Assembly (NCBI RefSeq): GCF_900142475.1
Contig: NZ_FRAY01000002.1
Coordinates: 434,001 to 498,000 of the forward strand
DNA: 64,000 nucleotides
Direction of reading: 5' to 3'
From: Fibrobacter sp. UWH4
GTDB taxonomy: Bacteria; Fibrobacterota; Fibrobacteria; Fibrobacterales; Fibrobacteraceae
Below the pieces are notes generated by a model, which saw only the letters and a list, made by a program, of their open reading frames with translations, searched no databases and was not told the origin of the DNA. This document shows, one piece after another, positions 1,974 through 3,467 of the stretch; positions within the stretch are counted from its first letter, which is position 1, and every line of letters starts with the position of its first letter. The position numbers and the translations under genes were made by a program.

Positions 1974-2331
1974 AGCGTGTAAAATATACTAATTCGAAAT
2001 TCAGAATTCGGAAATCCTAGTTAAAAGATGCCTAAGTAGAAAGGGCTTAGTTGGTAGAACTTAGAGCTAAGAACTTAGTGCTTAGAGAATCAGGAATTAG
2101 ATGTTGTTAAAAGGGGGGAAGTTTCCCCCTCGCTATCCTTCGGCAGCAAGGCAGAGAAAAGGTCCCTGAGCCTGCCGATATACGAAACTTGGCAACTCGT
2201 TGCCTTAGTTGAGTTAGGTTCGTAGGAGCAGGGCCGCTACGCACTCCAGGGTCGAGGATGACTTCGACGGGGCTGTCATCCTGGAGCGACTGCAAGGAGC
2301 GACGGGATCCAGGGCGACAGCAATTAAATTG

Positions 2332-2348
2332 TCATAAAATTATGACAA
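2332..2348. promoter_or_regulatory. Candidate regulator-binding palindrome 1
   Basis: A perfect inverted repeat, TTGTCATAA and TTATGACAA separated by AA (2329-2348). A near copy lies at 2393-2409, identical in 15 of 17 positions and 61 bp away (about six helical turns). The centre is about 115 bp upstream of the -24 element of the sigma-54-type promoter, a normal place for an enhancer-binding-protein site. Confidence 0.55.
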
Positions 2349-2351
2349 AAG

Positions 2352-2380
2352 TTGAATTTTAAAGACAATTATTCTATACT
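2352..2380 (+). promoter_or_regulatory. Possible sigma-70 promoter upstream of the sigma factor gene
   Basis: TTGAAT (2352-2357) and TATACT (2375-2380) with a 17-bp spacer. It lies between the two TCATAAAAT palindromes, so they could instead be operators for this promoter. Pattern match only. Confidence 0.4.
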
Positions 2381-2392
2381 TTAAGACAAGAT

Positions 2393-2409
2393 TCATAAAA
2401 TCGTGACAA
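2393..2409. promoter_or_regulatory. Candidate regulator-binding palindrome 2
   Basis: TCATAAAATCGTGACAA, which differs from the perfect palindrome at 2332-2348 at two positions. It lies about 44 bp upstream of the -24 element and just after the predicted start of the alternative sigma-70 promoter. Confidence 0.5.
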
Positions 2410-2450
2410 TTTCCACTAAAATTGATACACTTTGCAATTTTTTTACACTT

Positions 2451-2468
2451 TTGGCACGCATCTTGCTT
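2451..2468 (+). promoter_or_regulatory. Sigma-54 (RpoN) type promoter, -24/-12
   Basis: TTGGCACGCATCTTGCTT matches the sigma-54 consensus TGGCACG-N4-TTGC closely. The invariant GG is at 2453-2454 and the invariant GC at 2465-2466, with exactly 10 bp between them. Transcription would start near 2478, about 25 bp before the ATG of the sigma factor gene. Sigma-54 promoters always need an activator, and the palindromes at 2332 and 2393 are candidate sites for one. Confidence 0.7.
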
Positions 2469-2503
2469 AAAAAAATACGATATTAAGGACATAAGGTTAT
2501 AAA

Positions 2504-3316
2504 ATGCATATTGACTCCACAGATACTACACTAAAGAGATACCTCGAAGATATTAGACGCACTGCACCGCTTTCCCGCGAAGAAGAACAAGTCCTTTTCC
2601 AGAAAGCAAAAGAAGGCGACAAGATCGCCCGCAAGAAACTCATTTCCGCCAACATGCGTTTCGTGCTCAAGGTCGCCATCCAGTACCGCGGCTGCCCGAT
2701 TCCGCTGCCGGACCTGGTGAGCGAAGGCGCCATGGGACTTGTCCGCGCCATCGAATCCTTCGAACATACCCGCGGCCTTAAGTTCATCAGCTACGGCGTT
2801 TGGTGGATCAAGGCTTACATTACCCGTGCCATCAACGAACAGGGCAACCTGATTCGCTTGCCGGCGAACCAGCACCTGCGCGTGCGTAAGGCTTTGCACG
2901 AACAGAGCCGCGGTAAGGAAATCAACGAAGAAATCCGCGAACTCATCCAGATCGGTCAGCGCGGCGTTTCTTTCGACAGTCCGCTTAAGGCAGACTCCAA
3001 GGCCACTTACGCCGAAGTGTTGCCCGACGGTACCGCGACGAACCCGGAAAACGAATCCGAAATCCAGAGCGTCGAAGCCCTCGCCCGCGACCTCATGGAA
3101 CAGCTCCCGGAACGCGAAGCCAAGGTGATCACCGGTATCTTCGGTATCAACCAGGAAGCCCCGCAGACACTCCGCGAAGTGGGCGAATCCATGAACATTT
3201 CCCACGAACGCGTGCGTCAGCTGCGCGACCAGGCGCTGCGCCGTATTCGCAAGTACAACAGCAAGGAATTCCTGCAAGACAAGAAGGAAGCGTTCCTAGC
3301 AGCGATTAACAAATAA
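2504..3316 (+). CDS. RNA polymerase sigma-70 family factor (short RpoD-like)
   Basis: 270 aa. It contains region 1.2 (TLKRYLEDI near residue 9), regions 2.1-2.4 (about 45-125, with DLVSEGAMGLVRAIESF and the Trp pair of YGVWWIKAYITRA), a linker, and regions 3 and 4 ending in the helix-turn-helix LREVGESMNISHERVRQLRD near residue 225. Region 1.1 is absent, as in the short primary sigma factors of Bacteroidota. In region 2.4 the residue matching Gln437 of E. coli sigma-70, which reads the -10 element, is Ala, while the equivalent of Thr440 is kept. This may mean an alternative (group 2/3) factor with altered -10 preference rather than the housekeeping one. It is monocistronic with a strong terminator and has a sigma-54-type promoter. 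Confidence 0.93.
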   Translation: MHIDSTDTTLKRYLEDIRRTAPLSREEEQVLFQKAKEGDKIARKKLISANMRFVLKVAIQYRGCPIPLPDLVSEGAMGLVRAIESFEHTRGLKFISYGVWWIKAYITRAINEQGNLIRLPANQHLRVRKALHEQSRGKEINEEIRELIQIGQRGVSFDSPLKADSKATYAEVLPDGTATNPENESEIQSVEALARDLMEQLPEREAKVITGIFGINQEAPQTLREVGESMNISHERVRQLRDQALRRIRKYNSKEFLQDKKEAFLAAINK

Positions 3317-3467
3317 CAGGTATGAGCTACGAGCTCGCTCCCTTCGGGAGCTTTGGGCTTTGAGACAAAAAAAACATTCAGCAATAGCTGAATGTTTTTT
3401 CATATTCTACCCATAGGGTGCTTTGCACCCGGGCTCACACCTCAAAGGGCGAAGCCCGTGCTCAATG
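3317..3467. repeat. Convergent intergenic repeat around a terminator
   Basis: Between the ends of two convergent genes lie small palindromes, GAGCTCGCTCCCTTCGGGAGC (about 3340-3360) and GGGTGCTTTGCACCC (about 3416-3430), followed by CTCACACCTCAAAG. They resemble the elements flanking nrdR at 63.2-64.0 kb and probably belong to the same family. Confidence 0.5.
3372..3400 (+). terminator. Rho-independent terminator of the sigma factor gene
   Basis: Perfect 11-bp stem (AAACATTCAGC at 3372-3382 with GCTGAATGTTT at 3387-3397), loop AATA, followed by a T run. The A run on the other side makes it potentially bidirectional for the convergent gene as well. Confidence 0.9.

Follow-up and report, generated by a model that had tools for sequence, protein, structure and literature searches.

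Evenly spaced activator-like sites and a sigma-54-type control region before a Fibrobacter sigma-70-family gene point to a two-step relay new to the phylum

Which RNA polymerase reads the gene of a sigma-70-family factor when the DNA in front of it carries a sigma-54-type -24/-12 element, a sigma-70-type promoter, and a perfect palindrome with a degenerate copy? This question is raised by a locus in the window, by which we mean the whole 64-kb stretch (positions 434001-498000) of a 3.7-Mb Fibrobacter genome analysed here. A first-pass annotation had proposed an enhancer-activated relay from sigma-54 to a sigma-70-family factor, with a second reading in which the palindromes are ordinary operators around the sigma-70-type promoter. 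All the motifs it listed (the -24/-12 element, the 9-bp-arm palindrome, the copy, and TTGAAT-N17-TATACT) are present where it had placed them.

The sigma factor gene and its surroundings

The gene and its immediate signals are as follows.
2504..3316, plus strand: sigma-70-family factor gene; 270 aa, regions 1.2-2-3-4, without region 1.1
2493..2496, plus strand: likely ribosome-binding site AAGG, read from the sequence
3374..3400, plus strand: terminator-like hairpin and T run, read from the sequence

Since the hairpin and T run follow it, the gene looks monocistronic. Its product scored 195.5 bits against the RpoS equivalog cut-off of 378.7 and 161.2 bits against the cut-off of 354 for the RpoD equivalog-domain model TIGR02393; it stays below every equivalog cut-off, with about equal likeness to RpoS and to SigA/RpoD, and its best explanation is a putative non-primary, RpoD/RpoS-like sigma factor. 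The other sigma genes of the genome encode two RpoD-like short factors (L089 and L090) and three ECF-like ones, among which L089, at 185 bits likewise under the TIGR02393 cut-off, is the best RpoD candidate. Upstream of the L090-type RpoD-like gene (L154-L177) we observed a genus-wide Pho-box-like direct repeat, ATGACAA-N4-RTGACRAA, as well as a conserved AACTTTTGCRA element.

In Fibrobacter, the usual divergent neighbour of the sigma gene is a methyltransferase gene (at 46 of 67 loci, judged by one marker); fliD-like genes take this place in the distant Fibrobacteria loci L076, L078, L079, and L084. Outside the class, the best match to the sigma factor, in G040, was 38% identical and not usable as an orthologue. 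Further upstream in the window, TGGAGCGACTGCAAGGAGCGACGGGATCCAG at 2282-2312 looks like a dispersed intergenic repeat; it has a single copy in the window, and a similar stretch precedes the sigma gene in L009.

The -24/-12 element and its conservation

Two predicted promoters and their associated elements lie before the gene.
2452..2466, plus strand: P2, predicted sigma-54 promoter TGGCACG-N4-TTGC (-24/-12), with exact GG-N10-GC, conserved in orthologues
2441..2448, plus strand: TTTTACAC, element directly upstream of -24, recognized by its conservation
2477..2485, plus strand: predicted P2 start region ACGATATTA, with the start expected from the -12 geometry 11-12 nt after -12, at 2477-2479
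2352..2380, plus strand: P1, predicted sigma-70-type promoter TTGAAT-N17-TATACT, start expected at ~2387, conserved in near relatives

The P2 element fits TGGCAYR-N4-TTGCW and lies 52 nt upstream of the sigma gene, and its -24/-12 sequence is the only exact match within the window; genome-wide, the looser TGGCAY-N5-TTGC has 41 matches versus 15 for a reversed control. We compared the window with 80 orthologous loci, taking TGG-N9-TGC at most 130 nt from the start codon as the element. By this measure, 66 of 69 Fibrobacter-type orthologues have the element, and neither T-TGGCA nor TTGCT varies among 29 representatives, which were drawn from the 66 element-bearing loci and dereplicated by upstream sequence. 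A weaker GG-N10-GC persists in all nine distant Fibrobacteria orthologues, whose proteins are 71-74% identical; it lies between -53 and -73 relative to the start codon, with single-locus shuffles giving p-values from <0.001 to 0.058. The element is missing in three genus-level and three further orthologues, and shuffles at the six loci judged to lack it gave p-values of 0.2-0.85. GATATT (2479-2485), at about the +1 of P2, is strongly conserved within the genus. Elsewhere in the genome, GCG stands ~10 nt after TTGC at 8 of 17 intergenic sigma-54 sites, compared with 3 of 23 other sites, and is perhaps a preferred start context at many Fibrobacter sigma-54 promoters.

The first-pass annotation had made its reading depend on the presence of rpoN and on conservation of the GG/GC pair in orthologues, and the second of these is borne out by the counts above. 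As for the first, the window genome encodes an RpoN with its DNA-binding domain and an intact RpoN box (ARRTVAKYR), together with seven good sigma-54 activators (PF00158), and 40 of 41 relatives and all ten further genomes have rpoN. Loss of the -24/-12 element showed no correlation with loss of rpoN, the five searched genomes without the element all having the gene. A sigma-54 activator next to the sigma gene was sought and found only in L064 (1168-2697), where the sigma gene is divergent from a GAF-type activator that shares 65% identity with the window genome's L100; because L064 itself lacks the -24/-12 element, we treat this activator as a lead only.

Could the -24/-12 match be fortuitous, with the sigma gene transcribed from P1 only? 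GG-N10-GC alone is common by chance, and the five searched genomes that lack the element have rpoN; yet the element is invariant in nearly all Fibrobacter-type orthologues, although the remaining upstream DNA is largely unalignable, and it persists in distant Fibrobacteria. On this conservation and on the distant-locus shuffles, we rejected a chance match, and transcription from P1 only is extremely improbable. Conservation of TTTTACAC upstream and GATATT downstream might also suggest that the whole block from TTTTACAC to GATATT is the promoter of another holoenzyme, in which GG-N10-GC is incidental. However, this block contains no -35/-10 pair at 16-19 bp spacing, which ruled it out as a sigma-70 promoter; the columns that vary least in it are precisely those of the sigma-54 element; and in most of the distant genomes TTTTACAC and GATATT are absent, with GG/GC retained. 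We regard this reading as very improbable, and P2 would be the main conserved promoter of the sigma gene.

The dyad array and its spacing

Upstream of P2, the window carries four array sites, to which no strand is assigned.
2329..2348, unstranded: array site 1, perfect dyad TTGTCATAAAATTATGACAA (GTCA-N8-TGAC), putative enhancer (UAS), from conservation and enrichment
2349..2368, unstranded: array site 2, degenerate, right arm AAAGACAA at 2361-2368, overlapping the P1 -35
2370..2389, unstranded: array site 3, degenerate, right arm TAAGACAA, overlapping the P1 -10 and start
2390..2409, unstranded: array site 4, GATTCATAAAATCGTGACAA, the second copy of the first-pass annotation, placed by the array steps

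Site 1 is a perfect 9-bp-arm palindrome, TTGTCATAA-AA-TTATGACAA, unique in its own genome at 0-1 mismatch. Among 31 genus genomes, exact TGTCAY-N6-RTGACA occurs at six places, four of them upstream of the sigma gene. The annotated pair of upstream sites is real, in that site 4 lies 61 bp from site 1 and shares 15 of 20 positions with it, but the two are actually the ends of a four-step array, in which GACAA recurs at 2344, 2364, 2385, and 2405 (steps of 20, 21, and 20 bp) and whose positions are the same in most of the eight nearest relatives. Across the 29 dereplicated upstream regions, we counted 70 GTCAY/RTGAC boxes versus 10.9 expected from shuffles, with boxes in 26 of the regions. All 11 close inverted box pairs share one spacing, GTCAY-N6-RTGAC, and same-direction boxes favour a spacing of 19-21 bp. 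In the distant genomes L076-L079 the dyad is one base shorter (GTCA-N7-TGAC versus N8 in Fibrobacter); dyads were also looked for in L080-L083, which have a weaker sigma-54 element, and none was found. The six orthologues without a -24/-12 element contain no dyad pairs, and the heat-shock-type palindrome GTTTC-N5-GAAAC is not enriched in the sigma gene upstream regions.

The position of the dyads was then referred to the promoter elements. In all four of L076-L079, the dyads keep exactly the same distances (-75, -105, and -210) to the TGG of the -24 element, unlike the ATG, which varies between +54 and +65; since the upstream DNA of these four is partly alignable, the identical spacing may be partly inherited. 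L084 carries a similar dyad set. Measured from -24 in Fibrobacter, the dyad centres follow a ladder with a 10.5-bp period (R=0.80, n=25, one vector per locus; p~1e-7, p-values ignoring relatedness), and periods of 8 or 13 bp gave no signal. Loci with TATATT and loci without it are phased alike (0.79 and 0.80). Referred to the ATG, the phasing is only slightly poorer (R=0.74), since -24 and the ATG mostly stand a constant distance apart. A UAS is recognized by repeated dyads ~70-200 bp upstream that share one face of the helix with respect to the promoter, and the dyads here have this arrangement. On balance, the phasing and fixed spacing to -24, together with the occurrence of dyads independently of P1, argue that the boxes are putative enhancer sites of a sigma-54 activator, the protein that binds them being presumably such an activator.

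P1 itself is probably real, given that in the genus TATATT is more frequent than expected along the coding strand (17 versus 3.6) and that TTGAAW-N17-TATAYT is kept in close relatives. This part of the annotation's second reading stands, except that P1 would probably supplement P2 in part of the genus and not replace it. It leaves an arrangement in two layers, in which P2 is real but the dyads are an ordinary regulator's operators acting on P1. The array in the window clade does span from upstream of the P1 -35 to ~+20, the dyad or its left half begins 22-24 bp upstream of TATATT in L015, L016, L018, and L058, and the boxes are somewhat phased to TATATT (R=0.56, n=13, p=0.016). Nevertheless, 12 of 26 box-bearing Fibrobacter representatives and the five distant dyad-bearing genomes have boxes but no TATATT, and box-to-TATATT distances vary (22, 24, 35, 45, and 55), in contrast to those from -24, which are either fixed or in helical phase. 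The dyads fit -24 better, and we consider operators acting on P1 unlikely. A box-binding protein shared with the L090 sigma gene, which lacks a -24/-12 element, was also considered; the L090 repeats are 11-bp direct ones, and L090 was not counted against the enhancers because this arrangement differs from that of the dyads.

A putative relay, its genomic setting, and its precedents

The evenly spaced activator-like sites and the sigma-54-type control region point to a two-step relay new to the phylum, and a model in which a sigma-54 promoter with a dyad-array enhancer drives a sigma-70-family factor appears likely to us as a whole. In this model, (i) RNA polymerase with sigma-54 would read P2; (ii) an NtrC-family activator would bind as dimers to the GTCAY/RTGAC dyad array, ~50-140 bp upstream of -24 and on one helix face; (iii) the bound activator would loop to the closed sigma-54 complex and open it by ATP hydrolysis; and (iv) the new sigma factor would then redirect polymerase to its own target promoters. 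P1, inside the array in part of the genus, may add a basal or alternative start, which bound activator would be expected to block. What can be read directly from the DNA are the elements, how they are conserved, spaced, and phased, and the fact that the genome has rpoN and activators; that P2 fires, that the dyads are bound by a sigma-54 activator, and that the sigma factor carries the relay further are predictions. The relay proposed in the first-pass annotation is supported in outline by sequence comparison, with helical phasing and fixed spacing to -24 in its favour.

Further -24/-12 matches in the genome precede groESL, dnaK, grpE, htpG, hsp20, secA, glnN, and dapF, as well as a glnB-amtB-like pair (named from sequence only); glnN and this pair are among the expected sigma-54 targets. 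TGGCAY-N5-TTGC was observed upstream of htpG, groES, dnaK, grpE, hsp20, and secA (L112, L122, L124, L125, L136, and L140). GTTTC-N5-GAAAC occurs near several of these genes but is oddly placed, on the upstream side of -24 by 11 bp at secA and on the downstream side at htpG, with no genome-wide enrichment. The nitrogen-type targets glnN, the glnB-amtB-like pair, and dapF (L126, L129, and L131) carry TTTTACA/TGTAAAA boxes, arranged at dapF as a TTTTACA-N5-TGTAAAA dyad. A sigma-54 promoter was predicted at groESL in all 22 Fibrobacter loci read (within L199-L224, the window genome's own groES being L219), with CIRCE-like sequences instead in seven loci outside the genus (L197, L198, L201, L203, L210, L225, and L226). 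None of the 25 Fibrobacter genomes and neither of the two same-order genomes has hrcA, against 13 of the 14 others; it looks as if HrcA control of groESL had been replaced by sigma-54 in Fibrobacter.

The first-pass annotation had likened the locus to the RpoN-RpoS pathway of Borrelia burgdorferi with its activator Rrp2 (PMC4014564, PMC1976401). By analogy, sigma-54 and an enhancer-binding protein would in both cases control transcription of a sigma-70-family gene, and the Fibrobacter factor is RpoS-like; it falls far under the RpoS equivalog cut-off, however, so that the comparison holds as an analogy. The Fibrobacter locus also differs from that of Borrelia in its conserved phased dyad array, in a second promoter, of sigma-70 type, carried by part of the genus, and in having no virulence link. 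Flagellar RpoN-to-sigma-28 cascades are a further precedent, governed by master activators such as FleQ/FlrA/FlgR, with the FleQ site a GTCA..TGAC dyad of spacer N6. Likenesses to them are the sigma-54 to sigma-70-family hierarchy, the GTCA..TGAC dyad, and the fliD-like divergent neighbours in four distant loci. In contrast, the Fibrobacteria factor has region 1.2 and RpoD/RpoS-like rather than FliA-like regions, the dyad spacer is N7 or N8, and the divergent neighbour in Fibrobacter is the methyltransferase gene. A 2025 survey of 1,628 genomes predicted sigma-54 control of COG0568 sigma-70/sigma-32 genes in several groups, and of chaperones in Bacteroidota and Planctomycetota (PMC12316311); its prediction is of the same type as ours, whereas Fibrobacter does not appear in its main text, and we found no anatomy of upstream sites in it. 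In the literature collection searched, we found no work on sigma-54 or transcription start sites in Fibrobacter.

The kind of relay is already known from Borrelia rpoS, and Fibrobacteria would provide a new, deeply conserved, class-wide instance. More tentatively, and at somewhat less than even probability, there may be a class-wide hierarchy in which a dedicated sigma-54 activator controls an undescribed RpoS-like sigma factor, older than the genus, kept through the loss of flagella, and joined in Fibrobacter by a transfer of GroESL from HrcA/CIRCE to sigma-54. With their locked spacing, the dyads open the enhancer reading to a direct test. The locus would add an independent example of a sigma-54 to sigma-70-family relay beyond spirochaetes and proteobacterial flagellar cascades, and a deeply conserved, putatively sigma-54-controlled sigma factor offers a concrete starting point for work on global regulation in a rumen bacterium important for cellulose degradation.
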